A stretch of 64,000 nt of DNA from Pseudomonas sp. B21-048 (lineage in GTDB: Bacteria; Pseudomonadota; Gammaproteobacteria; Pseudomonadales; Pseudomonadaceae). This document shows positions 41,466-58,987 of the stretch, one piece after another. Position numbers and translations under genes: made by a program. Position 1 is the first letter of the stretch. Every line of letters begins with the position of its first letter. Where the stretch lies: positions 2,914,001 through 2,978,000 of the forward strand of contig NZ_CP087168.1 of NCBI RefSeq assembly GCF_024748615.1. The letters are read 5' to 3'. The notes beneath the pieces were generated by a model. The model was not told the origin of the DNA and searched no databases. It saw only the letters and a list, made by a program, of their open reading frames with translations.

Positions 41466-41663
41466 GCGTTGAAAAGATCAAATTGCCATCAGGCGAGCTT
41501 GCAAAAACACCGCGACCGTCTAAGTTCAAGACTATCTTCACAAGCGCAATCAACCGTACCTAACCAGCCCCTCAGGCGAGAGAGTCTATTGACCTGAAAA
41601 AAACTAGACGCTGCTTTTAATTGCTGACACGGAATCAGTCATAAAAATCAAGAGGGATGCTTG

Positions 41664-43550
41664 ATGAAGCGCAGCCGTGGGTATCGTGCGCTCTCGAAAA
41701 GAGGGCCAGCCGGACATTTCTGGATTTCATTGCTTTGCTTCTCGGGCCTGGTGATCGCCAGCTTTCTGTTGTTCGAACAACAGATCCAGGACTTCCTGAC
41801 CCATCTCAATCTGTACCTGCCCACTACCCCCTCCCAGAAACTCAACTTGGCAATGTTGCTGATCGCCCTGCTGGCGCTGGACGTGGTGCTGCCGGTGCCT
41901 TCGAGCATGGTCGCGCTGTTGGCCGTGGCCATGCTGGGCAGTCTCGGCGGCTATCTGGTGATTTTCATTGGCCTGTGCCTGGGTGCGGGGCTGGGTTATG
42001 CGCTAGGGGCCGGCTATTTTCGTCTGCTGTCCGGCCGCTTGGGCCTGCATCAACGCCAACCGGGACAGCTGGCATATCGGCTGAGCACGCTGTCGTTGAT
42101 CTGCCTGCGTGGCGTACCGGTATTGGCGGAAACCTCGGTGGTAGCCGCCGGCATGCAACGTTATCCATTGCGCGCGTTTCTACTGGTCACCACCCTGGCC
42201 AATGCCGGCCTGGCACTGGCCTATAGCGCCATCGGCACCTTCCTCGTCGAGCAGAACGCGTTGCTGGTGACCCTTCTCGCCAGCATGGTGTTGCCCGGGC
42301 TGTTTATCGCCGGGTACAGCCTGCTCAAGACCTTGCGCAGGCACGACGTGGAGCAACCACTGCATGGCCGATTCGAGGTCAGTTATGACTACCCGGTGGT
42401 GTTTACCGATCACCTGTTCGAGTTGTCCAACCCCTGCCTGCACCGCCAGCTCACTGCACGACTCACCCCACAGCACATAGGCCCTGTGACGGTGCTGGTG
42501 TTCGCTGATGAACACCTGTTGCACAGCGCCCCACAACTGCTGGAACAGATCGATGCCTACTTTGCCGCCCATGCGGCGGAGCTGCATTTGCAAGCCGCGC
42601 CGATTGCGGTTCCGGCCGGCGAACTGAGCAAGGATTCACACGTGTTGCAGCAGCTGTACAGCGACATGTTGCAACATGGGCTGGACCGGCATTGTTATGT
42701 TCTGGCCCTGGGGGGTGGCGCGGTGCTGGATGCGGTGGGCTACGCCTGCGCCACCTTCCATCGCGGCATTCGCCTGATCCGTATTCCGAGCACGGTACTG
42801 GGCCAGAACGACGCCGGCATCGGTGTAAAAAACGGCATCAATGCTTTCGGCCAGAAGAACTTGCTGGGGGCCTTCTACCCGGCCACCGCGGTGATCAACG
42901 ACTTCCAGCTGCTGACCAGCCTAACCCGTCGCGACCAGATCGCCGGGTTGGCCGAGGCGGTCAAGGTGGCACTGATCAAGGACCAGGCGTTTTTCCAATG
43001 GATGGAGCAACAGGTCGACGCCCTCGCCCACTTCGATCACTCGGCCAGCCGCTATGCCATTCGCCGCTGCGCCGAACTGCACCTGGCGCACATCACCGGT
43101 GCCGGTGATCCCTTCGAACGCGGTAACGGACGGCCACTGGATTATGGGCACTGGGCCGCGCACAAACTGGAAAACCTCAGCCAGCACCGACTGCGCCATG
43201 GTGAAGCCGTGGCGGTGGGCATGGCCCTGGATGGACTCTATGCCAATGCCATGGGACTGTTGAGCGATGCCGACACCGAACGGGTTCTGAACCTGCTGCT
43301 CAAACTCGGTTTCTGCCTGAACCCACCAGAACTGTCCTTGAAAGATGCACAGGGACGCTCGATGGCTCTGCTCGGACTGGAGGAATTCCGCCAGCACTTG
43401 GGCGGGCAACTCTCCATCCCCATGCTCAGCCGGATCGGCGAGTCGGTGGACCTGCATGAGATCGATGCCGCAAGGATGGAGCAGGCGCTGCAGCGACTGT
43501 CCACTTACAGCGGCCCGGCGCTCACCTTGAGCGAGGGTTGCGCGCAATGA
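41664..43550 (+). CDS. eboD: EboD: VTT/DedA-like membrane domain fused to dehydroquinate-synthase-like enzyme
   Basis: A 628-residue protein. Start ATG 41664 follows GAGGG. Residues about 20-220 have several membrane spans including VVLPVPSSMVALLAVAMLGS, matching the DedA/VTT family. Residues about 240-628 are a 3-dehydroquinate-synthase-like enzyme with the NAD motif LGGGAVLDAVGYACATFHRG near residue 350 and the metal ligand region SLTRRDQIAGLAEAVKVALI plus HxxxH-type residues. In other organisms EboD is a separate soluble protein of the ebo cluster. The fusion would tether the enzyme to the inner membrane. ATGA overlap with eboC. Natural substrate unknown. Confidence 0.85.
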   Translation: MKRSRGYRALSKRGPAGHFWISLLCFSGLVIASFLLFEQQIQDFLTHLNLYLPTTPSQKLNLAMLLIALLALDVVLPVPSSMVALLAVAMLGSLGGYLVIFIGLCLGAGLGYALGAGYFRLLSGRLGLHQRQPGQLAYRLSTLSLICLRGVPVLAETSVVAAGMQRYPLRAFLLVTTLANAGLALAYSAIGTFLVEQNALLVTLLASMVLPGLFIAGYSLLKTLRRHDVEQPLHGRFEVSYDYPVVFTDHLFELSNPCLHRQLTARLTPQHIGPVTVLVFADEHLLHSAPQLLEQIDAYFAAHAAELHLQAAPIAVPAGELSKDSHVLQQLYSDMLQHGLDRHCYVLALGGGAVLDAVGYACATFHRGIRLIRIPSTVLGQNDAGIGVKNGINAFGQKNLLGAFYPATAVINDFQLLTSLTRRDQIAGLAEAVKVALIKDQAFFQWMEQQVDALAHFDHSASRYAIRRCAELHLAHITGAGDPFERGNGRPLDYGHWAAHKLENLSQHRLRHGEAVAVGMALDGLYANAMGLLSDADTERVLNLLLKLGFCLNPPELSLKDAQGRSMALLGLEEFRQHLGGQLSIPMLSRIGESVDLHEIDAARMEQALQRLSTYSGPALTLSEGCAQ

Positions 43551-44437
43551 GCCAGACACCGCTGAACCTGAAGACCTGGATGACCCTGGGCCGGGTGTCC
43601 AACCTGCCCACTGTGTGGACCAACACCTTGGCCGCCGCCCTGCTGGCCAGTAGCGCCGGTGCCCTGGCGCCGCCGTCGTCCCTGGTGTGGATTCTGCTGC
43701 TGGCCGCACTGTCGTCGCTGTATCTGGCCGGCATGTTGTTGAACGACCTGCTCGACGCCGACTGGGACCAACAGCACCATAATCCCCGCCCTATCACTTT
43801 GGGTCTGGTCAGTCGACAGCAAGTGGGCCTGGCCACTGGGCTGTTGCTGGTGCTGGCCGCAGCTTCGGTACTGGGCCTGAGCCGACTGATCGACCAGCCG
43901 CTCTGGCTGCTGGGCAGCGCCACTCTGCTGGTGGGCTGCATCCTCGGCTACAACCTGCTGCACAAGAAATACGCCCACAGCGTCTGGCTGATGGGCGCCT
44001 GCCGCTCGGCCCTCTACCTCACGGCGGCGGCCAGCCTGGCGGTGCCACCGGAGCCGATCTGGCTCTGCGCCATTTTGCTAGGCGTCTACATCAGCGGCCT
44101 GACCTACCTGGCCCGTCAGGAACACCGCAATCAATTGCTCAGTCGCCTCCCCCTGATCCTGATGCTGAGCCCGTTGGCCCTGGCGATCTATGCCGACAAC
44201 GTCTGGTTTTGGCCGGTGTTGCTGCTCTGGCTTGGCTGGCTGGGCTGGCACTACTGGCGCCACCTGGCCAACCCACGGCAACGCCAGGTCCGCGCCTTTA
44301 TCGGCGCTGGCCTGGCGGCCCTGCCGTTGTTCGACGCGCTGGTGCTGGCCGTGGCCAACCAGCCATTGGGCAGCTTGTTATGTGTTCTGGTGTTTTTCCT
44401 GCTTCCACACTTCCAGCGCTGGATCAAACCGACATGA
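43547..44437 (+). CDS. eboC: EboC: UbiA-family prenyltransferase-like protein
   Basis: A 296-residue protein with about nine hydrophobic spans. The aspartate-rich motif NDLLDADWDQQHHNPRP near residue 65 matches the prenyl-diphosphate-binding motif of UbiA proteins. ebo clusters carry such a member. The start overlaps eboD by ATGA and its stop overlaps eboA. It probably transfers a prenyl group to an unknown acceptor in the membrane. Confidence 0.88.
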   Translation: MSQTPLNLKTWMTLGRVSNLPTVWTNTLAAALLASSAGALAPPSSLVWILLLAALSSLYLAGMLLNDLLDADWDQQHHNPRPITLGLVSRQQVGLATGLLLVLAAASVLGLSRLIDQPLWLLGSATLLVGCILGYNLLHKKYAHSVWLMGACRSALYLTAAASLAVPPEPIWLCAILLGVYISGLTYLARQEHRNQLLSRLPLILMLSPLALAIYADNVWFWPVLLLWLGWLGWHYWRHLANPRQRQVRAFIGAGLAALPLFDALVLAVANQPLGSLLCVLVFFLLPHFQRWIKPT

Positions 44438-45201
44438 ACATGGACGTCACAGCGCCGCCATCGGCGGCCCTCGAAATGCGCCACGACTGCCTCGCCGAAC
44501 AACGCCAGGCCTTTACCCAACAGCTCGATGACACCGAGCTGCAGTGGTGGCGTCAGGCACAGGAGCGGCTTGCCCAACGCCCGGACGCCAACACGGCGGC
44601 GCTCTTGAGCAGCCAGTGCAAGCGCAGCCTCAAGGAGCATGCGCTGCCCGACAATTGCGGCTGGAGCACTGTCCAACTGGCGCGGGCGTTGCTGCTGGCT
44701 GAGGTCCTGGAGCAACAACCCCTCGCCGGGCAGTTGCCCTTGCTGCGCCAGCTGTTTCTGTGGGGCGACGATCAGGAAAAGATCGCCACCTTGAAGGCCC
44801 TCGACTGGCTCGATAGCCGTGGGCTCTGCGTCGAGTTGGCGCTGCAGGCCGGGCGTACCAGCAACAGCCAGGTGTTTGCCGCCCTCGCCCTGGACACCCT
44901 CTACCCGTCGCGTCATTACAGCGAACGGGCCTTCCATCAACTGGTGCTGAAGGCACTGGGCATGGGGCTCGACGTACGACGCCTGCATGGCCTTACGCAA
45001 CGACAAAGCGTCACCCTCAACCAGCTGGCCCTCGACCTGCTGGACGAACAGCTCGCTGCCGAACGAACGGTGTCCGCCGGGCTACCCCGGGTGATTGCCT
45101 TCGACCTGCTCAGCCCGGCGCAACACCAGCGCCTGGTCGGCCTGAGTCAGCAGCAACGCTTGCCGCCGGAATGGCGAGAACACCTGACCGCACCTCTCTG
45201 A
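44434..45201 (+). CDS. eboA: EboA-like protein
   Basis: A 255-residue soluble alpha-helical protein starting MNMDVTAPPSAALEM by ATGA overlap with eboC. It consists of helical repeats rich in Leu/Gln (LARALLLAEVLEQQPL, LPLLRQLFLWGDDQEKIATL), as in the EboA family. EboA has no known catalytic activity. Position between eboC and eboB and helical character support the call; its sequence is not strongly diagnostic by eye. Confidence 0.7.
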   Translation: MNMDVTAPPSAALEMRHDCLAEQRQAFTQQLDDTELQWWRQAQERLAQRPDANTAALLSSQCKRSLKEHALPDNCGWSTVQLARALLLAEVLEQQPLAGQLPLLRQLFLWGDDQEKIATLKALDWLDSRGLCVELALQAGRTSNSQVFAALALDTLYPSRHYSERAFHQLVLKALGMGLDVRRLHGLTQRQSVTLNQLALDLLDEQLAAERTVSAGLPRVIAFDLLSPAQHQRLVGLSQQQRLPPEWREHLTAPL

Positions 45202-45242
45202 ACTGATGCTCAACGGCTCCCTCCCCTTGACGAGGATTCACC

Positions 45243-46127
45243 ATGCTCAAGTACTTCGACCCGCATATTCATATGGTCAGCCGCACCACCGATGACTACC
45301 AGAACATGGCGGCCGCCGGCATCACCGGAGTGATCGAGCCGGCCTTCTGGCAGGGCCAGGCCAGGACCAGTGTCGGCAGTTTCATCGACTACTTCGACAC
45401 CCTGTTGGGCTGGGAGCGCTTTCGCGCCAGCATGTTCGGCATCCATCACTTCTGCACCATCGGCCTCAACCCCAAGGAGGCCAATGACCTCTCGGTGGCC
45501 AATGAAGTGCTGGAGATATTGCCGCGCTACCTGGTGAAAGACGGCGTCGTGGCGGTGGGCGAAATCGGCTACGACGACATCACCCCCGAGGAGGATCGCT
45601 TTCTCGCCGCTCAGCTGGAACTGGCCAAACAGTTCAACTTGCCGGTGCTGGTGCACACCCCGCACCGCGACAAGATCGGTGGCACCAAACGCACCCTGGC
45701 GGTGATTCGCGAAGTGGGCATTGCCGAGCACCTGGTGATCATCGACCACCTCAACGAACTGACCCTGCCGCTGGTGCTGGACAGCGACTGCTGGCGCGGC
45801 CATTCCATCTACCCCAACACCAAAATGTCGGAACAGCGCATGGTCGCCCTGTTGAAGGAGTACGGCACCGAAAAAATGGTGGTCAACAGCGCCGCCGACT
45901 GGGGGATCAGCGACCCGCTCAAGGTGCCCAAAACGGGCGAGGCGATGCTGGCTGCCGGATTCACCGAAGCCCAGGTCGAACAGGTGCTGTTCCACAACCC
46001 GGTGGACTTTTTTGCCCAAAGCGGCCAACTGGACAAAGCCCTGGTCAGCACCCCACTGCCCATAGATCAGCGTCGGCAGTGGCAGGAAAACTCCGCCCTG
46101 CGGGGCCAGGAACCGGTGATCAAATGA
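45243..46127 (+). CDS. eboB: EboB: TatD-family metal-dependent hydrolase
   Basis: A 294-residue TIM-barrel protein with GAGG before the ATG. The metal-binding N-terminal motif is DPHIHM; later EIGYDDI, VHTPHRD and VVNSAADWG carry further ligands. It is the TatD-like hydrolase of ebo clusters. Substrate unknown; in the scytonemin cluster the ebo genes are needed to deliver a precursor to the periplasm. Coupled downstream by ATGA to eboE. Confidence 0.88.
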   Translation: MLKYFDPHIHMVSRTTDDYQNMAAAGITGVIEPAFWQGQARTSVGSFIDYFDTLLGWERFRASMFGIHHFCTIGLNPKEANDLSVANEVLEILPRYLVKDGVVAVGEIGYDDITPEEDRFLAAQLELAKQFNLPVLVHTPHRDKIGGTKRTLAVIREVGIAEHLVIIDHLNELTLPLVLDSDCWRGHSIYPNTKMSEQRMVALLKEYGTEKMVVNSAADWGISDPLKVPKTGEAMLAAGFTEAQVEQVLFHNPVDFFAQSGQLDKALVSTPLPIDQRRQWQENSALRGQEPVIK

Positions 46128-47356
46128 GTGCCGGCACGGGTTGGGCTGCCGCGCAGGTCGGTTATTGCAGCAATGTGCACCCGACCCGTGACCTGGCTGG
46201 GCTACGGTCCTCCATCGAACAGCATTTTCAGGGCGTGCGAACCCTGCGCGGGTTGAACGAGCAGGACAGTGGACTGTGGATCAGCGCCCTCGCCGCGTCC
46301 GAATTACAACGGGCGTCAGCTCGCGCGGAGTTCCTGAGCCTGCTGCAACGCAGCGGCCTGCGCCTGACCTCGCTTAACGGCTTTCCCTATGGCCAATTTC
46401 ATCAGGGCGCGGTGAAAGCCGAGGTGTATTTGCCCAGTTGGGCCGATCCGGAACGGCTGGCATACAGCCTGAATCTGGCGCGGATCCTCGCGGACGCCCT
46501 GCCGCCGGACTGTCGCCAGGGGGTAATTTCCACTGTGCCGCTGGGCTATGCCGCCAGCTGGAACCCAGCCTTACAGCAGCGTGCCGAGCATCTACTGCGC
46601 CAGCTCACGGCCGCACTGGCCAGGCTGCATCTGGAGACGGGCAAGAAGATCGTGTTCTGCCTGGAGATGGAGCCCGACTGCGTGCTGGAAAACACCGAGC
46701 AGACCATCGCCTTCTTCCACCGCTACCAAGCCACGGACCCGCACCATGAATACTTGGCGCTGTGTTTTGATGTCTGCCACCAGGCAGTGATGTTCGAAGA
46801 CTGCTATCAATCGCTGAAAAGGTTGCGTCAGGCCCGGGTGCCCGTCGGCAAGATCCAGCTGTCCAACGCCTTGATTTGTCGCCTGCCCCCTGATGACGAC
46901 AACCGGCGCGAACACGTCCTCAAGACCTTGAGCGACTTTGCCGAAACCACCTACCTGCATCAAGTGAAAGCCCGCGATGCGCAGGAGCGCTTATTGGCCT
47001 GGGCGGACCTTCCCGCCGCGCTCATCGATTGCGCGAAGCGCCCGGGACACTACCCCGAACTGAGGATTCATTTCCACATTCCACTGTTCAGCGAACACTT
47101 GCTGCTGCCCGAACTCAGCGGCAGTCAGATTGCCCTGTCGCAGACTTTCGATTTCCTGGCAGACCATGGGGATTTTCGTCCTGTACTGGAAGTGGAAACC
47201 TACAGTTGGGGTGTCTTGCCCGTCCCACTGCGGCCCACGACCGAGCACGCCCAACTCCACGGGATCGCCGCTGAACTGCACTGGGTCGAAGATCAACTGC
47301 GGCAGCGGCGATTGCTGCAACCCCAAACACGGGAGGCATACGCCGATGCCTTCTGA
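46124..47356 (+). CDS. eboE: EboE: xylose-isomerase-like TIM-barrel protein
   Basis: A 410-residue protein starting MSAGTGWAAAQVGYCSNVHP. The start overlaps eboB by ATGA. FCLEMEPDCVLENTEQTI and LCFDVCHQAVMFED provide Glu, Asp and His ligands of the sugar-isomerase-like TIM barrel, followed by KIQLSNALICRLPPDDD and LRIHFHIPLFSEHL. It is the EboE family member; the substrate is not known. It overlaps eboF by 11 bases. Confidence 0.87.
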   Translation: MSAGTGWAAAQVGYCSNVHPTRDLAGLRSSIEQHFQGVRTLRGLNEQDSGLWISALAASELQRASARAEFLSLLQRSGLRLTSLNGFPYGQFHQGAVKAEVYLPSWADPERLAYSLNLARILADALPPDCRQGVISTVPLGYAASWNPALQQRAEHLLRQLTAALARLHLETGKKIVFCLEMEPDCVLENTEQTIAFFHRYQATDPHHEYLALCFDVCHQAVMFEDCYQSLKRLRQARVPVGKIQLSNALICRLPPDDDNRREHVLKTLSDFAETTYLHQVKARDAQERLLAWADLPAALIDCAKRPGHYPELRIHFHIPLFSEHLLLPELSGSQIALSQTFDFLADHGDFRPVLEVETYSWGVLPVPLRPTTEHAQLHGIAAELHWVEDQLRQRRLLQPQTREAYADAF

Positions 47357-48791
47357 TCAACCGCGCCAACCGCTGCTACTGATCAACGTGGTAGGACTGA
47401 CACCGGCGCTTCTGGGGGCGGCGACGCCTCACATCAATGCCCTGTTGAAAACGGCAAAAATGGCCAGCCTGCATCCGGTGTTTCCAGCCGTCACGTCTAC
47501 GGTGCAGGCCTCGATCCTCACCGGTCTGCCGCCGTCGGAACACGGCATCGTCGGCAATGGCTGGTATTTTCGCGACCAGGCTGAAGTGCGTTTCTGGCTG
47601 CAACCCAACGCATTGATCCAGGGAGAAAAGGTCTGGCAGCAACTCAAGTGTGAGATCCCGGGGTTTCGCTGCAGCCAGCTGTTCTGGTGGTACAACATGT
47701 ATGCGGACGTGGACGCCGCCATCACCCCACGCCCTCACTACCCGGCCGACGGCCGCAAAATGTTCGGTCTGTATTCATCACCGGCCTCGTTGCACGAGCG
47801 CATCGAGCAGCAGATTGGCGAATTCCCGTTTCCGAGTTTCTGGGGCCCGGCGGCCGGCATCGCGTCGAGCCGCTGGATCGTCGACTGCGCCATCGCCGAA
47901 TTCCAGCTCGACCGACCCGACCTGCAATTGGTCTACCTGCCCCATCTGGATTACAGCCTGCAGCGCCTGGGCCCCGATCATCCATCGATTGCCGTCGAGG
48001 TGCGGGCCATCGACAGTGAAGTGGGTCGTCTGCTGGACTTTGCCCAGGAACAAGGCGCAGCGGTGATGCTGCTGTCCGAATACGGGATCGAAGCGGTACA
48101 GCAATCGGTCTCCATCAACCGGCTGTTACGCTCGGAAGGGTTGCTGCAGGTGCGCCAATCGCTGACCTGGGAGTTGCTCGACCCCGGCGCCAGCGCGGCC
48201 TTTGCCGTGGCCGATCATCAGATCGCGCATGTCTACGTGAAGCAGGCGCAAGACGTCCCGCGCGTCAAAGCACTGTTGCAGCGCCAGCCCGGCATCGAGC
48301 AGGTGCTGGATAAAACCGAACAACGGGCCTGGCAGCTGGATCATCCCCGCAGTGGCGAGCTGGTGACCGTAGCGGCACCGGGTTACTGGTTCGATTACTA
48401 CTACTGGCTTGACGATCGCCAGGCACCCGACTTCGCCCGCACCGTGGACATCCATCGCAAGCCCGGCTACGACCCGCTGGAGCTGTTCATCGACCCGGCC
48501 ATTCGTTTCCCCAAGCTGAAAGTGGCGCGCCGTCTGCTGCAGAAGAAGCTCGGTTTTCGCTACTACATGGACCTGATTCCGCTGGACACCGGATTGATCC
48601 GCGGCAGCCATGGCCGCCTGCCCACCAGCGAGCAGACCGGCCCACTGCTCATCACCAATTGCGATCTGCCGTTGCCGCAGCACCTTGCGGCCACGGCGGT
48701 GAAACAACTGCTCCTGCAGCATTTCCTGGGGCACCCACACACCGACCTGGCCAATGCCAAGGAGCTTCCATGCGGCGCGCCATTTCTATAA
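47346..48791 (+). CDS. eboF: EboF: alkaline-phosphatase-superfamily phosphodiesterase
   Basis: A 481-residue protein with the nucleotide pyrophosphatase/phosphodiesterase core. VVGLTPALLGAATPHINALL provides an opening loop, PAVTSTVQASILTGLPPSEH holds the catalytic Thr, and VYLPHLDYSLQRLGPDH and LLSEYG carry metal ligands. The canonical first metal Asp after VVGL is not obvious (VGLTPALLG), so activity may be altered. Overlaps eboE at the start and the next gene by 22 bases at the end. No signal peptide. Confidence 0.86.
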   Translation: MPSDQPRQPLLLINVVGLTPALLGAATPHINALLKTAKMASLHPVFPAVTSTVQASILTGLPPSEHGIVGNGWYFRDQAEVRFWLQPNALIQGEKVWQQLKCEIPGFRCSQLFWWYNMYADVDAAITPRPHYPADGRKMFGLYSSPASLHERIEQQIGEFPFPSFWGPAAGIASSRWIVDCAIAEFQLDRPDLQLVYLPHLDYSLQRLGPDHPSIAVEVRAIDSEVGRLLDFAQEQGAAVMLLSEYGIEAVQQSVSINRLLRSEGLLQVRQSLTWELLDPGASAAFAVADHQIAHVYVKQAQDVPRVKALLQRQPGIEQVLDKTEQRAWQLDHPRSGELVTVAAPGYWFDYYYWLDDRQAPDFARTVDIHRKPGYDPLELFIDPAIRFPKLKVARRLLQKKLGFRYYMDLIPLDTGLIRGSHGRLPTSEQTGPLLITNCDLPLPQHLAATAVKQLLLQHFLGHPHTDLANAKELPCGAPFL

Positions 48792-49909
48792 CAGTTCTGA
48801 GTACCCTGGCCGGTTTGGCTCAGGCTCAGAGCCCGAACACCTTCGACTGCAGCAACTTTCTGCAGTTTGGAGGAGACATCAACAAGACCCGGACGGCGTT
48901 TGTCCAGAGTCCCGAAACCCTGGCCTGGAACTGGTTCGTCTGTTTGAACCAGCCTGCCGCCGCGGGGAGCCCCAACCGCGAGTGGGAATCCATGAAGCCC
49001 TCCGACCAGGTCTTCCTGATCAATGGCGCCAAACCCGCCCCTTATGGCACGCCCGTGCCGCCCCCGGACGCGGTGCTGACGCAAGCCAAGGCGCAAGGAA
49101 TGGACCTGTCCCGAATCTTCCATAGCCTCAATGCCACGCAACAGGTGGATGGCATGATTCTGGAAATGGGCGGTGCGGTGCCGGCAGCAGAAACAGGCAA
49201 ACCCGTGCGCTTTCAGCTGCTGATGGGCGAAGGCACTTTCGATTACGTCGTTCAACGCCAGGTCTACAACATGAATGGTCAGGCCGCCTTGACCAGCAAC
49301 CTGGAGTTCCCGTCCATCGCCTGGGAATTGAAGTCCGCCTGGCTGTGGATCGGCTCCGACGCGATCTACAAACAGACACTGGAACACGACGGTTACTACA
49401 TCGCCCAGGCCTATTACCTGCAAGACGGCAAATACCAGGTCGGCTACGCAGCGCTGAGCGGCTTGCACATCATCAACAAACTGAATCCCGGCTGGGTCTG
49501 GACCACTTTCGAAAACATTAACAACAGCAAGTACACCGTCACCAACGCCATCCCGCCCACCCCGATGACCAACAGTACCGGGCCGATAGCCGCTGCCAAG
49601 CCCGTCAACAGCCAATTCCAGGCCCAATATCCCGGGTTGTCGCAGTACGAACTGATCGCCGTCCAGTCCAGGACCAACCCGACCTTGCTGGCCAACTCTC
49701 AGCTGGAGTCAGCCTTCCAGAGCCAGTCGTCCTGCTTTGCCTGCCACGACACCGCCGCGTATTCGGCGCAAAAGGGCTATTTCAACTTCGCCATGAAAGA
49801 ACAGGGCGGCATCGTCTACCCCACCGCCCCTCTGCCGGACTCGGCCTTTGCCGGTTACAACAAACTGGACTTTGTCTGGTCGCTTAAACGCGCCCAGTGG
49901 CAACGCTAA
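48770..49909 (+). CDS. Exported single-CxxCH protein, module copy 1
   Basis: A 379-residue protein with AAGGAG before ATG 48770 and a signal peptide MRRAISITVLSTLAGLAQAQ. One heme c-type motif, CFACH, occurs near the C-terminus (QSQSSCFACHDTAAY). It shares with the 52379 product WNWFVCLNQP/WQMFIALNWP, GLHIINKLNPGWVWTTFE/GLHIITKANGYPQWIWSTFE and the C-terminal SSC-x2-CH block. It is a periplasmic protein likely binding heme. It overlaps eboF, so it is part of the same transcript. Function unknown. Confidence 0.8.
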   Translation: MRRAISITVLSTLAGLAQAQSPNTFDCSNFLQFGGDINKTRTAFVQSPETLAWNWFVCLNQPAAAGSPNREWESMKPSDQVFLINGAKPAPYGTPVPPPDAVLTQAKAQGMDLSRIFHSLNATQQVDGMILEMGGAVPAAETGKPVRFQLLMGEGTFDYVVQRQVYNMNGQAALTSNLEFPSIAWELKSAWLWIGSDAIYKQTLEHDGYYIAQAYYLQDGKYQVGYAALSGLHIINKLNPGWVWTTFENINNSKYTVTNAIPPTPMTNSTGPIAAAKPVNSQFQAQYPGLSQYELIAVQSRTNPTLLANSQLESAFQSQSSCFACHDTAAYSAQKGYFNFAMKEQGGIVYPTAPLPDSAFAGYNKLDFVWSLKRAQWQR

Positions 49910-49919
49910 GGAGCATGAC

Positions 49920-52310
49920 ATGAGCGTATTGAACTTCCCCCGCATCTACCTCAACGGCCATATGTTCTGGAACCCGCCGACGGCCAACAACAACGATGTG
50001 CTGCCGCTCTACGACGCGGTCAAGATGCAGATGAACTGGCGGTTTCTCGCTGAATACGGCATCGATCCCGAGAATGCCGCCAGCACCTTGATGCCCTGGA
50101 CCATCGCGCCTTTGCCGCTAAGCGACGTACCGGCCTATGCCCAGCAAGTACCGGGCAATGCCAATCCGGGTAACTACCCGATGATTCCCGCCGAATGGGA
50201 CCTGTTCGGTGACAACGCCTGCGGCACTGTCAGCTATGACCAGACCCGCTCCGTGATCATTGGCGGCGAGCTTCCTGGCGGTGGTTACGTCGACCAGGAC
50301 GCGCTGATCGACAAGGGTTATCAACTGTTCGGCAGCCCCCTTGGCAGCACGAATCCCACCCCCGCCCGTTTCGTCGACGTCAGCCCCTGGCAGAACACCT
50401 TCACCGCGTTGTACTTCGACAAGCTGGTGCTGGGTGACGATCAGTGCGGCGTGACGCTCAAGCGTCAACACCGGATGCTCGATCGTTTCCTGAACTTCAA
50501 CTGGGGGGCGTTGGGTGGCCTGATCTATGTCACCACGACCTGGCAGACCTGCTTTCCCAAAGAGAACCTGCAGTGGGTGATCGGCAACTCGCAACTGCTG
50601 AAAAACCTCCAGGAACAGATGGAGCAACAACACGCCAAGGGGCTGATGTTCAGGTTCTCCACCTACCTGACCTGCTACGACAAAAATGGCATTTTCAACA
50701 ACTACCCTCCCATCAACACCCACTCCACAGACCCGCAAATACAGGCCAACGTGCAGGCGATGTATCAAAAAGGCCTGGATAACGTTGCCGATATTTTCTT
50801 CAACCCGGCCTACAGCCGCACCGCCGGCACCCTGGGTTTGTGGTTTGAGGATGAGTTCCCGACCGCGCCGGCGGGACGACGCCTGGCCCCCGCCTCCGCC
50901 ATCAGCATCTACCAAAAAACGCCGGGCGATACCCACCTTCCTCCGGGTGTGGAAATACAACTGGGAGTGATCTCGACCCAGCTCCAACCCGACAGCGATA
51001 CCCTGTCGCTGGATCTCTCGACTGCCTTCCCGTTCTATCCGCTCGACAGCAAGGCGGATATTCCAGTGGCGGAAAAATTTCAGGCAGGCGATTACGTGCT
51101 GGGGATAAACGACGCAGGCCAGTTCAGCCCCTTGGCCAGTTTCGGCTTCGAACAGTATCGACAGGCAGCCTTCGACAAACGCTCCGGCATCCTGGACTTG
51201 ACGCTCAGCCCCGGAGCCCGGAAAAAGCTGCAAACCGGATCGCTTGAATTGCAACTGCAAGGCACGACTCCGGTGCAAGCCGCCACCCAGCAAATGTGGA
51301 CCGCCGAGGTTGTCGAAAGCGCCAGCTTCATCGATGTCGGCGACAGCAGAACCCTGCAGATCATGGTGCAATACGACGGCCTTCCGGCTCCGGCCGGCAC
51401 CGTGCTCTGGGTGGCGGAGTACGACAACGCCTTCATGCTGAGTACCAGCAACTACTACCTGGCGTTCAGCAACAAAGCCGACTTCACGCTGTTCTACGAC
51501 TATCCGTTGAACCGCCAAAGCAACAAATCCAATCTGCCGCAATTTATCGATACCCCCAGCGAACACAGCCAGGCAAGCACGGGCAGTGGCCGCCGGCTCA
51601 TGGCGTTGCACGCCGAGGCTCCCTTCGAGGTGCCGATCCCGGTCACCTATCAACAATACCTGTCGACACCCGCCTCGGTCTCCCTGGCCCCCAGCCTGGG
51701 CTTCAGCAATCCCATCGCCATGGAAGGAAAACTGCAGGATCTGCAGAACAGCACCGTGAACTATTGCGTGACGCAGATACAGACTGACGCCAAGGGCATC
51801 GCGCAATTGACCGTCAAAGGTCGGGCCCCTGGCTTTCCGACCCTGCGCTTCTTCGTGCAGGAGGGTGAACAGCCTCCCGAAATCCCTTTCAGTTTCAACT
51901 ACACCGACGCCTATACCGACTTCCTGGCGCCTTTGCGTGTGCTGCCGCTGGAACCGAAACTGCAGGTGGACTTTGTCAATGAGTGGAACAAGATCTACTC
52001 GAAAACCGAGGCCCGGGTCCTGATCTGGGAAAGCTTCATCTATCCACGCATCCTGCAGCCCTTCTATTACCTGTACCCGATCATGAGCAAATACATGCCA
52101 CTCAATTCCCTGGAGCGAATCGAAGGCGCCATCGACCAACTGATTGTGTTGATCAGCAAGGAGTACCAAGAGGAAAGCACCCTCGCCATGCCCATCACCC
52201 GCGACATGTCACAAAGCCGACGCGCTGTGCTGGAGCTCTGGGCACAGTCGCTGGTGAAACGCAATTACCCACCCGTCCCGCTCAACATGAGCGATTACGA
52301 ACAAGGCTAA
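49920..52310 (+). CDS. Large protein of unknown function, module copy 1
   Basis: A 796-residue protein with AAGGAG ending 6 bases before ATG 49920; starts MSVLNFPRIYLNGHMFWNPP and has no signal peptide. It is beta-rich and Asn/Thr/Ser/Gly-rich in the middle. Its N-terminus and C-terminus match the 53699 product: IWESFIYPRILQPFYYLYP, IMSKYMPLN and TLAMPITRDMSQSRRAVLEL correspond to ITWERMYPNVLRFHYLAFPA, MSRYIPLN and TLFMPVVRSMSPCQRALLRA. The middle is unrelated by eye. No catalytic motif recognised. It probably acts with the preceding CxxCH protein. Confidence 0.75.
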   Translation: MSVLNFPRIYLNGHMFWNPPTANNNDVLPLYDAVKMQMNWRFLAEYGIDPENAASTLMPWTIAPLPLSDVPAYAQQVPGNANPGNYPMIPAEWDLFGDNACGTVSYDQTRSVIIGGELPGGGYVDQDALIDKGYQLFGSPLGSTNPTPARFVDVSPWQNTFTALYFDKLVLGDDQCGVTLKRQHRMLDRFLNFNWGALGGLIYVTTTWQTCFPKENLQWVIGNSQLLKNLQEQMEQQHAKGLMFRFSTYLTCYDKNGIFNNYPPINTHSTDPQIQANVQAMYQKGLDNVADIFFNPAYSRTAGTLGLWFEDEFPTAPAGRRLAPASAISIYQKTPGDTHLPPGVEIQLGVISTQLQPDSDTLSLDLSTAFPFYPLDSKADIPVAEKFQAGDYVLGINDAGQFSPLASFGFEQYRQAAFDKRSGILDLTLSPGARKKLQTGSLELQLQGTTPVQAATQQMWTAEVVESASFIDVGDSRTLQIMVQYDGLPAPAGTVLWVAEYDNAFMLSTSNYYLAFSNKADFTLFYDYPLNRQSNKSNLPQFIDTPSEHSQASTGSGRRLMALHAEAPFEVPIPVTYQQYLSTPASVSLAPSLGFSNPIAMEGKLQDLQNSTVNYCVTQIQTDAKGIAQLTVKGRAPGFPTLRFFVQEGEQPPEIPFSFNYTDAYTDFLAPLRVLPLEPKLQVDFVNEWNKIYSKTEARVLIWESFIYPRILQPFYYLYPIMSKYMPLNSLERIEGAIDQLIVLISKEYQEESTLAMPITRDMSQSRRAVLELWAQSLVKRNYPPVPLNMSDYEQG

Positions 52311-52378
52311 AACAACAACGCTTCACTCAGGACCACCGGGTGACGAGCCTGTCACCCGGCACTTCACAGGAGTGTCAT

Positions 52379-53695
52379 ATGAAAGCCAGCATCTTGAACC
52401 GATTGTTGCTGCTAACCCTGCTGCTCGGCCTGGCCAGCCTGCCGGCCCAAGCCCTGGAGCAGCCCCTGGACCAGGCCATGCCGTCGACGCAGGCCACCAG
52501 CCTGAACTGCCAGCCTCCCGGCACCGCGCCGGCCGCCTCGGCCAGTCAGGACCAGTTCGATCAGTACAGCTGGCAGATGTTCATCGCCTTGAACTGGCCC
52601 GCACAGAACGGGCAGCGAGGTGATCCCGACTGTAGCAAACAGCCTGGGGATCCCGGCTACACCGTCTGGCAGACCTACAAGACCGTGGAGGAAATCTTTC
52701 TGCCGCAAGGGGCCAACCCTGGTCCGTGGAATACCCCGCAGACCGCAAAAAGCCTGGGCATCATCAACATCGCCGCGCTGAAGAACAGCAGTCAGGTGAA
52801 TGCCGTCGACCAGGCCGTCGGCGGCTGGCTGATCGACCAGGCCGGCAACCCGACCTACTACGACATCTCAGCCAACGAGACCTCTTACAACTACATTGTC
52901 GCCAACAACTTCTATAACGCCGATGTCGTGTCCAGAGCCAGCAACATCAACTTCCCCAACGGGGTCATCGAGGTCAAATCGAGCTGGCGCATCCTCACGA
53001 CCTCTGACAATGCCAGTCACTACCTGACCATGCTCGCGCGCGTGGCCAAGTTCGACGACCAAGGCCAGCGCATCGGTGTCACCGAGGCGTACCTGGGCCT
53101 GGTGGGCCTGCACATCATTACCAAGGCGAACGGTTACCCACAGTGGATCTGGTCCACGTTCGAGCAGATCGACAACGTTCCGCCCAAGGCGCTGGTGAAC
53201 GGCAAATGGGTCGACCAGCCGACATCCGGCACGGCCTATTCCTACTTCAACCCCGCCGCCCCCGCCGTCAGCCTTAACCAGTCCCCCTGCGACTGGCAGA
53301 CTCAGGGCGCACATCTGGTCTGCGTGCCCAAACCCGGCACCACGTTCCAGACCCCGAACCCGCTGAACCGGTACACCCCGATCGCCGAGGTCACCAACGG
53401 AGTCAACAATCAATACCGCACCGATCCGGACCTGCAAAGAAGCGTACTGAAGTACTACCAGCTCATCACCACCCAACGCCCGCTGATGCCGGACAACCCC
53501 AGTAACCCACTGGGCCAGCCGACACCGGCCCTGTCGGCCAACGTGACCATGGAGAGCTACATCCAGCCCAACAGCAGTTGCATGAATTGCCACTCCATGG
53601 CGACACCGGTCAAGAGCCCCTACAAGGCCGATTTTTCCTACCTGTTCAAATTCGCCAATGCGCCCGTCGGCAAAACCACCAAGGACGAGGAATAG
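52379..53695 (+). CDS. Exported single-CxxCH protein, module copy 2
   Basis: A 438-residue protein with CAGGAG before ATG 52379 and a signal peptide MKASILNRLLLLTLLLGLAS cleaved near AQALEQ. The heme c-type motif CMNCH is near the C-terminus (NSSCMNCHSMATP). It is a paralogue of the 48770 product by shared blocks in the N-terminal and GLHII regions. It carries extra sequence between the two. Probably periplasmic, possibly heme-binding. Starts 68 bases after the preceding gene. Confidence 0.8.
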   Translation: MKASILNRLLLLTLLLGLASLPAQALEQPLDQAMPSTQATSLNCQPPGTAPAASASQDQFDQYSWQMFIALNWPAQNGQRGDPDCSKQPGDPGYTVWQTYKTVEEIFLPQGANPGPWNTPQTAKSLGIINIAALKNSSQVNAVDQAVGGWLIDQAGNPTYYDISANETSYNYIVANNFYNADVVSRASNINFPNGVIEVKSSWRILTTSDNASHYLTMLARVAKFDDQGQRIGVTEAYLGLVGLHIITKANGYPQWIWSTFEQIDNVPPKALVNGKWVDQPTSGTAYSYFNPAAPAVSLNQSPCDWQTQGAHLVCVPKPGTTFQTPNPLNRYTPIAEVTNGVNNQYRTDPDLQRSVLKYYQLITTQRPLMPDNPSNPLGQPTPALSANVTMESYIQPNSSCMNCHSMATPVKSPYKADFSYLFKFANAPVGKTTKDEE

Positions 53696-53698
53696 ATC

Positions 53699-55510
53699 AT
53701 GAGCATTCTCAATGGACCACGACTGAATTTCTGGGGCGGCATACGCACGGACGTCAGCCTGCCGAACAACTCCCCCACCATCCCATACGACGGCAATGAC
53801 GAATGGCCGCTCTTCGACCTGACCACCTCGACCCTGGCACCGGGCGCCCAGTCTTACACCGATGATCAGTTGAACAACATGATCAACGCGCCCGACGGCG
53901 ACTACTACACCGCCGGCGGCTGGAATCACTACGGGCAGCACGTCGTCGACATGCAGAACGCCTTGATCAGTTCGCAGGGTAGTCCGGGCAGCATCAACAC
54001 CACCGGCGATATGGTGGGCCAGCCGGTCTATCTGCTCGGTTCGGTGGACCCGGTGACCGGACAGGGGCCCGTTTCCGGCCCGATGATGGTAGACCTGGAC
54101 CCCACCTCCTCAACGACCACCCAGATTTTCGTCGGCGGTCTGCAAATTGGCGGTAACAGCGACATCCAATTGCTGATTCGCAGTAATACCGTGTGCAGCA
54201 GTTTCGACGTGGCGGGACGTGTGCTGTTGCCCGCGAAAATGGATGCGCCGGGATCTTTCCACGCCAGCGGTACGTTTCAACTGACCTTCCCTTTGAGCAG
54301 CATCGTCAGCTGGAACCAGAACAGCAGTGGCCTGCGCTCGATCATCAACGCGCCGGGTGCGACAGGCATCGTCCTGCGTTTCGTCATGTTCGAAATGTGC
54401 CCCATGATGACCACCGAACAACTGGATGCCGACTACGCCGCCGGCAGGTACACGCCCAACCCGAGCATCGGCAGGGTCATCGGTACACTGGCCCCGGCCT
54501 TCGCCGACGAGCCGCTGAACTGCCAGGCGGGCCGGCAACTGGTCAACCAGAGTACGGGCAATGCCGGTTATGCAGAGTTGGGCGAAAACAACGGTTACCT
54601 GAGCATCGACATGGTGAACGTCATTCCGAAGGAAACCTTCAGGGCCGTCAGGGACGACATCACCAGCCCTATCGGACCCAACGCGAACTACGGCCCCGTC
54701 ACCTTCAGTGCAGGCACCACCGAACTGACCACCCTGGAGCCGACCAGCCGCTTTTTACTCGACTACTACGTGTATGGCGGCATCGTCGACCTGCCTCTGA
54801 CCGCCAATAAACTGCAGGCGGTGCGGACCACTGCGCTGGCCATCAACGCACCCAACAAGGTCGCCGGGACCTCGCTTCAAGCCACCGAATCGACCTATCG
54901 AATCTATGCCGATCAGCGCAATGTCTACCTGGAGGACTACCCCAATGGCCTGTCGATCACTTTGCAGGTGAGGTATCTGGGCGGCCCGGTCCCCAGCGCT
55001 ACCGAAATCGACCTGCAGGCCGCTGCGCCTGCTGCGTACGATCAACCGCAATACTGGGACTTCCTCGATTTTCCTTCCTCGCTGACCGTCAACACCGGCC
55101 AGCTCGAAATCAGTGTCCCCGTCACCGTCAAACCGGGTAGCGCCGCCCAAGCGGGTTTTGTCGCCCTGACCTGTACGGCCAATGGCCTTCCGAGCAGTGG
55201 CTACTTCACCAGCTTTCGCAAATACGCACAGACCGACTTCGGCATCCCCGCGGGCACCACCATTACCTGGGAGCGGATGTACCCGAACGTCTTGCGTTTT
55301 CACTACCTGGCCTTCCCCGCCATGTCGCGCTACATCCCGCTCAATCAGCCCGACGCGGTCAAGGGCGCCAAGAACCCCATCCTCGCCCGCACCTCGGACG
55401 CCTACAAAGGCACCACCCTGTTCATGCCCGTGGTGCGCTCGATGTCGCCCTGCCAGCGGGCGCTGCTCCGGGCCTACCTCACTGGTGAACCGTGGCAGCC
55501 GCCGCAGTAA
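53699..55510 (+). CDS. Large protein of unknown function, module copy 2
   Basis: A 603-residue protein starting MSILNGPRLNFWGGIRTDVS, 3 bases after the preceding gene. It lacks a signal peptide and is rich in Asn, Thr, Gly and Pro with a beta-strand-like pattern. N- and C-terminal segments match the 49920 product, but about 190 central residues are absent. The pairing of a CxxCH protein gene followed by this family occurs twice in a row. No known domain recognised. Confidence 0.75.
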   Translation: MSILNGPRLNFWGGIRTDVSLPNNSPTIPYDGNDEWPLFDLTTSTLAPGAQSYTDDQLNNMINAPDGDYYTAGGWNHYGQHVVDMQNALISSQGSPGSINTTGDMVGQPVYLLGSVDPVTGQGPVSGPMMVDLDPTSSTTTQIFVGGLQIGGNSDIQLLIRSNTVCSSFDVAGRVLLPAKMDAPGSFHASGTFQLTFPLSSIVSWNQNSSGLRSIINAPGATGIVLRFVMFEMCPMMTTEQLDADYAAGRYTPNPSIGRVIGTLAPAFADEPLNCQAGRQLVNQSTGNAGYAELGENNGYLSIDMVNVIPKETFRAVRDDITSPIGPNANYGPVTFSAGTTELTTLEPTSRFLLDYYVYGGIVDLPLTANKLQAVRTTALAINAPNKVAGTSLQATESTYRIYADQRNVYLEDYPNGLSITLQVRYLGGPVPSATEIDLQAAAPAAYDQPQYWDFLDFPSSLTVNTGQLEISVPVTVKPGSAAQAGFVALTCTANGLPSSGYFTSFRKYAQTDFGIPAGTTITWERMYPNVLRFHYLAFPAMSRYIPLNQPDAVKGAKNPILARTSDAYKGTTLFMPVVRSMSPCQRALLRAYLTGEPWQPPQ

Positions 55511-55540: not shown

Positions 55541-56596
55541 ATGTCCATTCCCGTTCATATTCCGGCACAACCGACTGAAACGTTGTGCCCGAGCACCATC
55601 ATCGCCGAGGGCCTGCTGAACCCTCGGGGCCTTTGTATCCAGGCCGATGGCAGCCTGCTGCTGACTGAAGCCGGTTCAGGCCTGCCGGACCAGCCCTTCA
55701 GCGGCCGCATCAGCCGACTGCGACCGGATCCGCACAGACCCGGCGCCTACCTGCCCCGCGAAACACTGGTGCAAGGTTTTCGCGCCATGAACATGCAGAC
55801 CCGCATGCTGCGCGATGAAATCATGGGCTTGTCGGACATCGCCTGCGGTGACGGGCGCTGCCTGGTCAGCCAGACCGATTACGTCGAGGGCTCCAAACTG
55901 CTGGACCTGCAATACACCCCGCCCGAGCCGGTGTTTCACAGCCGTGGCAATCTGAATACGCTGTGTTACCACCCGACTCGCCGCAGTTGGCTGGCGGTCA
56001 AACCCGATACCAATCAGTTGGTGGAATTCAGCAGCGAACACGGTGAGCGCGTGCTGGTCCAGTTGCCCGAACTGGATCAAGGCCAGGAAGCCGTTCCCGT
56101 GACCCTGGTGTACGAACCGGCGACCGACGCCGTGCTGATCAGTCTGTTCTCTGGAGAATTACATGGCGACCCGACGCGCAAGGGCATCGACTTTGCCGAC
56201 AAGGCAGGCCAGGTGATTCGGGTCTCGCCCGCCAGCGGGCAGATCGAGCCCCTGATTCGCGGCCTGCAACTGCCCACCGGACTGGCACTGTGTCCGAAGG
56301 GCAACGTGCTGGTCCTGGAACTCTGCGACCGCCTGCAGCAACCCTTGCCGCCGGACTGGAACGGCGAACCGCTGCATGGCGGCTTTACCCGTTTCAGCGG
56401 GCGGCTACTGAGCTGCAACCTGCAAACCGCCCAGGTCGCCGTGCTCGCCCGAGGCCTGGATACCCCGTCCAACCTGTGCCTGTTGCCGGATGCGGCACTG
56501 GTGAGCGAAGGCATGGGATTAATCGGCCGGCCACTGCCCACGCCAGACAACAACGTTGTCCCGTTGAGCGGCAGACTGCGACGGGTGCAGCTCTGA
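55541..56596 (+). CDS. Beta-propeller-like protein (SMP-30/NHL type)
   Basis: A 351-residue protein, start ATG 55541 behind GGAGAGAG. Repeats such as GLCIQADGSLLLTEAG, GLALCPKGNVLVLELCDRLQ and NLCLLPDAALVSEG resemble gluconolactonase/NHL-type propellers, with DIACGDGRCLVSQTDYV in between. No signal peptide is obvious. It is the last plus-strand gene before a REPIN, 31 bases after the module copy 2 gene, so likely the end of the ebo-linked operon. Confidence 0.7.
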   Translation: MSIPVHIPAQPTETLCPSTIIAEGLLNPRGLCIQADGSLLLTEAGSGLPDQPFSGRISRLRPDPHRPGAYLPRETLVQGFRAMNMQTRMLRDEIMGLSDIACGDGRCLVSQTDYVEGSKLLDLQYTPPEPVFHSRGNLNTLCYHPTRRSWLAVKPDTNQLVEFSSEHGERVLVQLPELDQGQEAVPVTLVYEPATDAVLISLFSGELHGDPTRKGIDFADKAGQVIRVSPASGQIEPLIRGLQLPTGLALCPKGNVLVLELCDRLQQPLPPDWNGEPLHGGFTRFSGRLLSCNLQTAQVAVLARGLDTPSNLCLLPDAALVSEGMGLIGRPLPTPDNNVVPLSGRLRRVQL

Positions 56597-56857: not shown

Positions 56858-58987
56858 CTACAAGGTGTATGAAATTCCCGCCTGCACGGTTCTCGGCGCG
56901 CCCGGATAGGCGTAGACATTGCCAAAGGCGCCTTCGTCGTAGTGGCTGTCGAACAGGTTCTTCAGGTCAAGGTTCAGCCGCAGGTGCTCGTTGACTTTGT
57001 AATAGCTGAGCAGGTCGACCACCGTGTAGCTGTCCATGGAGAAGGCAGTGGCCGCGGTCTGGCCGGCGCGCTCGTCGACGTACTTGGCGCCAAGCCCCAG
57101 GCCCAGCCCTTTGAGGTCGCCGTCCTGAAACTCATAGACGTTCAGCAGGCTGAAACTGTTGCGCGGAATGTTCACCAGGCGCGTGCCTGACTTCAGCACG
57201 TTGTCCTGGGTGACTTCAGCATCCACATAGGCGTAGCCACCGATCATGCGCCACTGCGGCGTGAGGTTGCCGGCCACATTCAGATCTAAGCCACGGCTAC
57301 GAACTTCGCCCGCCGCCACGCTGAAGGTCGAGTCCACCGGGTCTGTCGTCAGGACGTTGCGTTTTTCGATCTGATACACCGCGGCATCCACGCTCAACTG
57401 GCGATCGAAGGCCTCCCACTTGACACCCACCTCGTAGGATTTGCCTTCTTCAGGTTTGAAGCCGCCACCGGTTCGACTGGCACCGCTGTTGGGCTTGAAG
57501 GACCGTGCCGTATCGGCATAAATCGCCACGGTCGGGGTCACGTCGTAGATCAACCCCAGGCGCGGGGTGACTGCGTTGTCGCTGTTGGTCCAGCTTGTAC
57601 CGTTGACGAGGTAACTGTCGTAATCCTGTTCGAAGCGTTCGAAACGTACGCCTGCCAAGGCTTTCAAGCGCTCGGTCAGGGTCACCTGGTCTTGCACGAA
57701 AGCGGCGTAGGTCTTGAGGTTTTCCTGATCGTGGGTGGTGGTGCGAGTCAGCGCCGGACGCGGCTGGCCGTAGACCGGATCAAAAATATCGATGGGGTAG
57801 GCACCCACCGCCCCACTGGAGCGACGGATGATCGACTTGTAGTCGTAATCCTCATATTCGATGCCCGTCAGCAACGTGTGGTCGAATCCGGCCGTGGAAA
57901 AATGCCCGGTCAGGTTCAACTGCACATCCCGGTCGCGCCACTCCAGCTTGCGGTAGTTGAAGTTGCGTCCCAGCGTGCGGCCGTCGGCAGCGACACCGTT
58001 GCCTTCGATGGCATTGCCTTGCATGCTGCCGTCGAGCCACTGGCCGCCGCCGCCCAAGGTCCAGTCGTCGTTCAGGAAATGCTCGAAACGCACCTGCGCC
58101 ATGTTGTTGTCGTTGTGCAGCTTGCCGATATCCTTTTCACCGAAAAAAGTATCTCGCGACGCGACGCCTGTCTGATTGCGATAGCGGGTCACACCCCGAT
58201 CGAGCGGCGCGTTGTTGCGCATGAAATCGCCTTCGAAGGTGATACGGGTGGTGTCGTTGACCTGCCAACCGAGCACCGGCGCCACACCATAACGCTCGTT
58301 TTCGACGTGATCACGGAAGGTATCGCCACCCTCGCCTATCACGTTCAGCCGATAGGCCAGGCGCCCTTCGTCATCCAGCGGCCCTGAGGCATCCAGCGTG
58401 CCGCGACGCATGCCTTGATCGTTGAGCTGACTGCCCAAGGTGACCGTGCGCTCGGCCAGGGGTTGTTTGGATACCACGTTGAAGGTGCCGCCCGGGTCGC
58501 CACGGCCATACAGCGTGGTGGCCGGCCCGCGCAGGACCTCCAGGCGCTCGATGGTATTGGCATCAGGCATGTTCGGATAACCACGGTTGATCGGGAAACC
58601 GTTGCGGTAGAACTCACCGGTGGTAAAGCCACGCACGGTGAAAGTGGTCAGGCCCTGGCCGCCGAAATTGTTCGCACGGCCCACGCCACCGGCGTAATCG
58701 AGAGCATCTTGCAACCGGGTGGCACCGAGGTCTTCCACGACATCCTTGGTGACAACGCTGATGGATTGTGGGGTTTCATGAATCGGCGTGTCGGTGCGCG
58801 TCGCACTGGCCGAACGGGTTGCTCGATACCCCTGAACCGGCCCTTGGGCCGGTTCATCGTATGTGCCGTTGATGTCGATCGCTTGCAATTCCAATGACGC
58901 AGGACCGGTCGATGCTTGTTCACCCCAGGCAGCCTGGGAGATGGCTTGGATCACACACAGAGAAACGAGAGTTCGACGCATCAACAT
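56858..58987 (-). CDS. TonB-dependent siderophore receptor
   Basis: A 709-residue outer-membrane receptor; the ATG at 58987 has AAGG five bases upstream, and signal peptide MRRTLVSLCVIQAISQAAWG follows. The TonB box region is DTPIHETPQSISVVTKDVVE, the plug domain follows to about residue 170, then a 22-strand beta-barrel ending VQAGISYTL with a C-terminal aromatic-type Leu. The family imports ferric siderophores; the ligand is unknown. A Fur-like regulator gene lies upstream on the other strand. Confidence 0.9.
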   Translation of the reverse strand: MLMRRTLVSLCVIQAISQAAWGEQASTGPASLELQAIDINGTYDEPAQGPVQGYRATRSASATRTDTPIHETPQSISVVTKDVVEDLGATRLQDALDYAGGVGRANNFGGQGLTTFTVRGFTTGEFYRNGFPINRGYPNMPDANTIERLEVLRGPATTLYGRGDPGGTFNVVSKQPLAERTVTLGSQLNDQGMRRGTLDASGPLDDEGRLAYRLNVIGEGGDTFRDHVENERYGVAPVLGWQVNDTTRITFEGDFMRNNAPLDRGVTRYRNQTGVASRDTFFGEKDIGKLHNDNNMAQVRFEHFLNDDWTLGGGGQWLDGSMQGNAIEGNGVAADGRTLGRNFNYRKLEWRDRDVQLNLTGHFSTAGFDHTLLTGIEYEDYDYKSIIRRSSGAVGAYPIDIFDPVYGQPRPALTRTTTHDQENLKTYAAFVQDQVTLTERLKALAGVRFERFEQDYDSYLVNGTSWTNSDNAVTPRLGLIYDVTPTVAIYADTARSFKPNSGASRTGGGFKPEEGKSYEVGVKWEAFDRQLSVDAAVYQIEKRNVLTTDPVDSTFSVAAGEVRSRGLDLNVAGNLTPQWRMIGGYAYVDAEVTQDNVLKSGTRLVNIPRNSFSLLNVYEFQDGDLKGLGLGLGAKYVDERAGQTAATAFSMDSYTVVDLLSYYKVNEHLRLNLDLKNLFDSHYDEGAFGNVYAYPGAPRTVQAGISYTL

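Follow-up and report, generated by a model that had tools for sequence, protein, structure and literature searches.

Clusters of ebo genes occur across many phyla, and Ebo proteins are implicated in the transport of scytonemin precursors into the periplasm (PMC6282210). The closest described system to the one treated here is the EDB cluster of Pseudomonas fluorescens NZI7, which is reported to contain a full ebo cluster together with non-ebo open reading frames (ORFs) with signal peptides and to be needed to repel Caenorhabditis elegans (PMC6282210). In a review, E. coli carrying this cluster is described as forming indole compounds from tryptophan, two of which moderately repel the nematode (PMC9655573). 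We analyzed a stretch of 64,000 nucleotides (the window) from Pseudomonas sp. B21-048, whose genome is a single contig of 5.7 Mb (NZ_CP087168.1; the window covers positions 2,914,001 to 2,978,000), and which, like NZI7 EDB (PMC6282210), combines a full ebo cluster with further ORFs that have export-type starts. Downstream of eboF the operon continues on the same strand with a module of five genes, C1-B1-C2-B2-P. We propose, with a probability of roughly 0.55, that this module makes up the enzymatic half of a nematode-repellent, two-compartment biosynthetic cluster of EDB type that is organized like scytonemin biosynthesis. The ebo/EDB kind of biosynthetic cluster is already known; what is new here are two protein assignments, namely B as VioB-like and C as cytochrome P460-like, and in a small part of the openly licensed literature we found no description of the module in either of these terms.

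Pfam and NCBIfam scans identified the full ebo cluster at 41661-48791, in the order D-C-A-B-E-F and as a single operon, and the four frames C1, B1, C2 and B2 were recovered on the plus strand exactly where the original prediction had placed them (Table 1). The overlap of eboF with C1 (48770-48791), which had been taken to tie the module to eboF, is 22 bp in the window and 22 or 31 bp in 16/16 fetched relatives. This overlap, together with the short gaps between C1 and B1 (4-12 bp in 16/16 relatives) and between C2 and B2 (3 bp in 11/11 relatives), is as expected for one translationally coupled operon. B1 was present in 17 of 149 Pseudomonas genomes and the eboE family in the same 17, with neither in the other 132; the two surveys drew the same number of genomes, and genomes without a match were named only in part. 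Named genome contigs were also scanned with two peptide patterns derived from B1, and of the 56 loci obtained 54 are close and 2 distant; distant relatives are under-sampled since the patterns are biased to B1-like starts. In all 54 close public loci eboF is followed by C1-B1, the complete set of six ebo genes can be seen in 52 (the exceptions are L071, truncated by a contig end, and L104, with no eboC match), and P is the last module gene in 51, the remaining three reaching a contig edge before P. The expected co-occurrence of module and ebo in Pseudomonas was thus borne out in 17/17 eboE-positive genomes sampled and in 54/54 close loci, which disposes, within Pseudomonas, of the idea that the two are unlinked. 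Because every eboE-positive Pseudomonas genome sampled carries the module, NZI7 very probably carries it as well. The close loci are listed under Azomonas, Rheinheimera, a Paucimonas metagenome-assembled genome (MAG; L080) and a contig labelled Pantoea sp. Cy-639 (L084) in addition to Pseudomonas, which suggests that, mislabelled records aside, ebo and module move as a unit. The module and ebo genes of L084 and L080 are close relatives of those in Pseudomonas, as mislabelling, contamination or horizontal transfer would each produce. Across 398 genomes of the phylum the eboE family was found in three, one of them outside Pseudomonas. The single ebo cluster examined outside Pseudomonas and the close loci, that of genome G332, had no detected module gene in the 19.5 kb read, and the module is therefore not a general extension of ebo.

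The identity of the large B proteins came from profile comparison. B1 and B2 share a C-terminal block of 75 residues with 36% identity (E 2e-12), and their N-terminal pairwise matches are weak; a profile-profile alignment of the two families nevertheless spans 571 columns, nearly the whole length, at 98.8% probability. The shared terminal blocks of the original prediction hence stand, whereas the middle, which had been described as not shared, is diverged but related. The large proteins had also been described as having no recognizable domain, and this did not hold: both match TIGR04492, the VioB family (B1, E 3.5e-7, 28.4 bits; B2, E 6.1e-6, 24.3 bits), far under its cut-off of 1250 bits, and hhalign aligned them over nearly their whole length to the N-terminal halves of VioB-type proteins at 99.8 and 99.2%, respectively, with 20 shuffled controls at 1.0% or less. 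The similarity includes the MS(V/I)LNxPR start and the MPxxRxMS end. No Pfam family was matched by B1 or B2 in a scan at E up to 1, including PF12902, the ferritin-like half of VioB. Two distant loci clarified the architecture. L118, from a Richelia MAG, encodes a protein of 1110 aa with a VioB score of 906 bits (cut-off 1250), which begins MSVLNFPR like B1 and carries PF12902 at 701-936; in L116, from an alphaproteobacterial MAG, the two VioB halves are neighboring genes with an X-like piece adjoining (gene X is described below). Given these architectures and the profile matches to their N-terminal halves, we assign B1 and B2, by homology, as free-standing VioB N-terminal halves without the ferritin-like half. 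They differ from VioB also in being partnered by an exported heme protein. The missing half is not provided elsewhere in the genome in most strains, as PF12902 occurred in trans in 1/17 ebo-positive genomes and in 0/17 ebo-negative genomes tested. VioB itself, the iminophenyl-pyruvate dimer synthase of TIGR04492, is reported to couple tryptophan-derived imines, dimerizing indole-3-pyruvate imine, and to use heme b (PMC9705886), so the window resembles the violacein cluster in having a VioB relative of the type that works on such imines; it differs in that no family match among the operon proteins scanned pointed to VioA, C, D or E.

A scan of the 398 genomes with TIGR04492 returned B1 of genome G083 and two partial matches resembling the ferritin-like half (L014 and L015), at a threshold too strict to recover B1 from the genome of the window itself. 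An NCBIfam glutaredoxin match of B2 (E 0.078) was dismissed as chance, and sequence searches of the PDB with B1, C1 and both family profiles gave nothing useful. L116 (1-4107) shows a split VioB arrangement in which a fragment resembling X, a gene of PF12902 type and one of B type adjoin, with no full ebo cluster in 13.5 kb. In L118 (4429-9665; cyanobacterial MAG UBA3308) the VioB-type gene is followed by a gene that by eye resembles a flavin monooxygenase, possibly a bisindole pathway. In L015 (2-2451) a frame resembling by eye a GMC-type oxidoreductase is directly followed by the gene matching the VioB C-terminal half.

Two other roles for the B proteins were weighed at this point. The original prediction had offered an enzymatic or a toxic effector system, and under the latter B proteins would be toxins and C proteins accessory. 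The B proteins are indeed large and present in two diverged copies, and the B1 model (predicted local distance difference test score, pLDDT, 77.8) has an immunoglobulin (Ig)/macroglobulin-like domain at 459-675, a type shared with adhesins, invasin and intimin among them, followed by a helical C-terminus; Foldseek/VIA searches with the entire model probe mainly residues 343-747, chiefly this Ig/macroglobulin-like part. Ig-like folds are widespread, however, and the match spans one domain only. Moreover, the homology of B is to a biosynthetic enzyme, no toxin, adhesin or secretion domain was matched by B1 or B2 in Pfam or NCBIfam, and a hydrophobic signal-like start is absent from both (judged by hydropathy rather than with a signal-peptide predictor), in agreement with the earlier statement that they have no signal peptide. 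Across the module, matches to toxin-like families were confined to sub-threshold ones attributed to chance, and the homologies are biosynthetic or heme-related. A protein toxin is thus unsupported and we regard it as very improbable; an enzymatic extension of ebo, tied to EDB, is supported. Alternatively, the B proteins might be non-catalytic carriers or scaffolds that hand a hydrophobic indole intermediate to the Ebo machinery, with catalysis left to the periplasmic C proteins and the Ebo enzymes. Such a hand-over would suit the tight linkage of B to ebo, and VioB chemistry normally takes place on a protein of two halves, of which the ferritin-like one is absent here in cis and, in 16/17 genomes, in trans. 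Many B1 residues, on the other hand, are invariant down to 56% identity, seemingly beyond the needs of a carrier, and catalysis in VioB may reside in its N-terminal half; we consider the carrier role unlikely.

The C proteins were then compared with heme protein families. C1 and C2 are 24% identical (E 2e-22) and have the GLHII...W(V/I)W(T/S)TFE block in common; each has exactly one CxxCH and a hydrophobic N-terminus (again by hydropathy, not a signal-peptide predictor), in keeping with their earlier description as exported single-motif proteins. The cysteines and histidine of the motif, which lies near the C-terminus, are kept in 42/42 C sequences. In the AlphaFold2 model of C1 (pLDDT 85.6) the 16 best structural matches were all cytochrome P460 or cytochrome c'-beta, with a moderate fold score. 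In the sequence alignment a lysine stands at the position matching the heme cross-link of P460 (Lys188 of C1) in 42/42 C sequences. Profile comparison with the heme motif removed placed this lysine in register with a score of 26.5, against 15.5 or less for shuffled profiles, at an hhalign probability of only 8.6-14.5%. The score of the whole C and P460 profiles lay barely above that of shuffles that keep CxxCH, and the part free of the heme motif alone stood out. C2 in addition contains FPNGVIEVKSSW, which resembles the P460 motif FPdGtxxvK. In 27 members of the C family no match to PF16694, the P460/c'-beta family, was obtained at E up to 1, and a plain P460 hidden Markov model did not separate C sequences from shuffled ones. 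The sequence support for kinship is therefore short and local and the fold score moderate, and we tentatively predict P460/c'-beta as the nearest fold of C1 and C2. The likeness comprises the CxxCH toward the C-terminus, the lysine at the cross-link position, the FPxGx4K-like motif of C2 and, less surely, the predicted beta-sheet fold. The C proteins differ in being two to three times longer, in being encoded in a biosynthetic operon and in an invariant His233. An OXA-type NCBIfam match of C1 (E 0.026) was dismissed as chance.

This fold can also be read differently: C1 and C2 might be cytochromes of a c'-beta-like or ordinary c-type kind that bind gases or transfer electrons, with no part beyond protection or electron supply, and B, EboB, EboE, EboF or other enzymes would carry out the chemistry. 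The two top Foldseek rows for C are c'-beta proteins (7ead and 7zqz), and such proteins appear to bind nitric oxide and carbon monoxide without converting them (PMC6427953). Furthermore, C relatives occur in 18/398 genomes of the phylum, and in 20/20 loci examined (12-19 kb each) they stand without a detected B, X, P or ebo gene. These distant relatives showed no common partner when 20 of 47 candidate neighbors from 12 of the 20 loci were scanned: there was one GMC oxidoreductase, one tyrosinase-domain protein, and otherwise a mixed or family-less set. The GMC oxidoreductase belongs to L119 (5700-9704), where a C-type P460-like cytochrome lies beside it and a small gene, as for an electron-accepting cytochrome that partners a dehydrogenase. 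Against this reading, c'-beta proteins are described as having Phe, Met or another residue in place of the cross-linking lysine (PMC11928373), the aligned position being Lys in every C sequence (42/42); we hold an accessory role to be rather doubtful. L119 comes from the genome G332 mentioned above, whose module-less ebo cluster is about 670 kb away.

Comparison of the close loci revealed how the second pair is carried. In those relatives with C2-B2 that could be read, a further gene, X, encoding about 306 aa with a hydrophobic signal-like start, lies between B1 and C2. X, C2 and B2 occur or go missing jointly (all three in 40/54 close loci, none in 11, a contig edge in three), and X-C2-B2 is thus an optional cassette. 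A B1 tree with 54 rows, made up of the window and 53 loci after omission of L106 for a broken B1 frame, indicates at least five changes of cassette state, with the three contig-edge loci not counted and the window scored as cassette-bearing. The original prediction of duplicated tandem pairs was right in that there are two homologous pairs. A recent tandem duplication was rejected: at 24% identity between C1 and C2, and with both copies deeply conserved, the C-B pairs are old, strongly diverged paralogues, with X between them in relatives. Only in the window are C2 and B2 present while X is missing, a state found in none of the 51 readable loci. BLASTN against its closest relatives (L063, L017 and L064) showed that about 0.93 kb is absent from the window, with a breakpoint at ~52424-52426, and that C2 of the window opens with codons matching the X signal peptide (MKASILNRLLLLTLL) before continuing into that of C2 (GLASLPAQA). 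The window therefore lacks X because a deletion of ~0.93 kb fused the signal peptides of X and C2. Relocation of X was rejected, as no match was found elsewhere in the genome in a search run without a positive control of its own.

Taken together, the assignments suggest a division of labor across the inner membrane. Signal-less B proteins would bind, couple or rearrange tryptophan-derived intermediates of the indole-3-pyruvate type in the cytoplasm; Ebo proteins, by analogy with scytonemin, would carry the intermediate to the periplasm; and the exported C proteins, with a c-type heme on a P460-like fold, would oxidize it there, possibly assisted by exported X and the propeller-like P. C1-B1-P would form the core, and X-C2-B2 an additional set, optional and leading to a variant product. 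Attachment of c-type heme takes place in the periplasm, and E. coli without active cytochrome c maturation is predicted to accumulate shunt products. The parallel to the scytonemin cluster (scyABCDEF with ebo) lies in a tryptophan-derived product, a proposed cytoplasmic coupling, ebo-dependent export and a periplasmic late step, as described there (PMC6282210, PMC4870267). Further, the NHL-repeat protein ScyF recalls P (a weak match), and the duplicated late ScyD/ScyE recall C1/C2 (PMC4870267). This likeness is one of organization only and does not come from comparison with Scy sequences.

Several points weigh against the proposed enzymatic role in an EDB-type pathway. To our knowledge the EDB products are not coupled indoles. 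The ferritin-like half that the B proteins lack may be the essential half of VioB, no tryptophan oxidase was recognized among the cluster proteins in the Pfam and NCBIfam scans, and the C relatives described above stand apart from ebo in all 20 loci. If the biosynthetic reading is true, it explains where the EDB nematode repellent is made, suggests that the real EDB product may have been missed, and extends the P460 fold into secondary metabolism. For the coupling of ebo to exported chemistry, Pseudomonas offers a case of tight linkage between ebo and two enzyme pairs. Each pair now has an identity open to testing, with a half-enzyme of VioB type next to a P460-like heme protein in which a single named lysine is suspected of cross-linking. 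More tentatively still, and as a possibility we would not favor, the C proteins might form a new branch of large P460-superfamily members, with a lysine-cross-linked heme and a role in natural products rather than nitrogen metabolism, and constitute with the free-standing VioB N-terminal halves a new two-compartment indole-modifying machinery. As c-type hemes require periplasmic maturation, the simple indoles from E. coli could then represent a shunt, with the true EDB metabolite perhaps yet to be discovered.

Table 1. Positions of the ebo genes, the module genes and selected sites in the window (position 1 is its first letter).
Feature	Position	Strand	Description and basis
eboD	41661..43550	+	Dehydroquinate-synthase-like domain with additional N-terminal region; NCBIfam NF004852, residues 223-628, 628 bits; heads the conserved D-C-A-B-E-F order
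eboC	43538..44437	+	UbiA-like prenyltransferase homologue; PF01040, 44.7 bits; NF035940 (EboC), 84 bits, under its cut-off
eboA	44434..45201	+	NF035938 (EboA domain), 135 bits, above cut-off
eboB	45243..46127	+	TatD-like metal-dependent hydrolase; PF01026, 46.9 bits
eboE	46127..47356	+	TIM-barrel protein; NF035939, 402.6 bits, above cut-off
eboF	47343..48791	+	Type I phosphodiesterase/nucleotide pyrophosphatase; PF01663, 211 bits
C1	48770..49909	+	379 aa; putative exported P460/c'-beta-like cytochrome, single CxxCH; hydrophobic signal-like N-terminus
C1 Lys188 codon	49331..49333	+	In register with the P460 heme-cross-linking lysine (hhalign, heme motif removed); codon checked
C1 CxxCH heme motif	49733..49747	+	Residues 322-326; codons checked
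B1	49920..52310	+	796 aa; putative stand-alone VioB N-terminal-half homologue; TIGR04492, hhalign, hydropathy
C2 chimeric signal-peptide start	52379..52426	+	Breakpoint ~52424-52426, gene X to the left and C2 to the right; BLASTN against L063, L017, L064
C2	52379..53695	+	438 aa; putative second exported P460/c'-beta-like cytochrome, single CxxCH
C2 Lys200 codon	52976..52978	+	Counterpart of C1 Lys188 by alignment; codon checked
C2 CxxCH heme motif	53579..53593	+	Residues 401-405; codons checked
B2	53699..55510	+	603 aa; putative second stand-alone VioB N-terminal-half homologue; TIGR04492, hhalign, hydropathy
P	55541..56596	+	NHL/strictosidine-synthase-like (beta-propeller type); low-scoring matches to PF03088 (E 0.007) and PF01436 (E 0.009), each under cut-off, in a scan run from 55520

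Promoter and terminator scans of the locus gave scores no better than those of shuffled sequence. EDB has been reported to be under GacS control (PMC4406715). Immediately before the eboD start, AGAGGGATG at 41651-41659 is a possible GGA motif for RsmA-type control, and a run of G-rich repeats lies at 41442-41467, about 200 bp upstream of eboD. Beyond the module, a large reverse-strand gene at 56858-59056 reads, judged from its sequence, like a TonB-dependent siderophore receptor.

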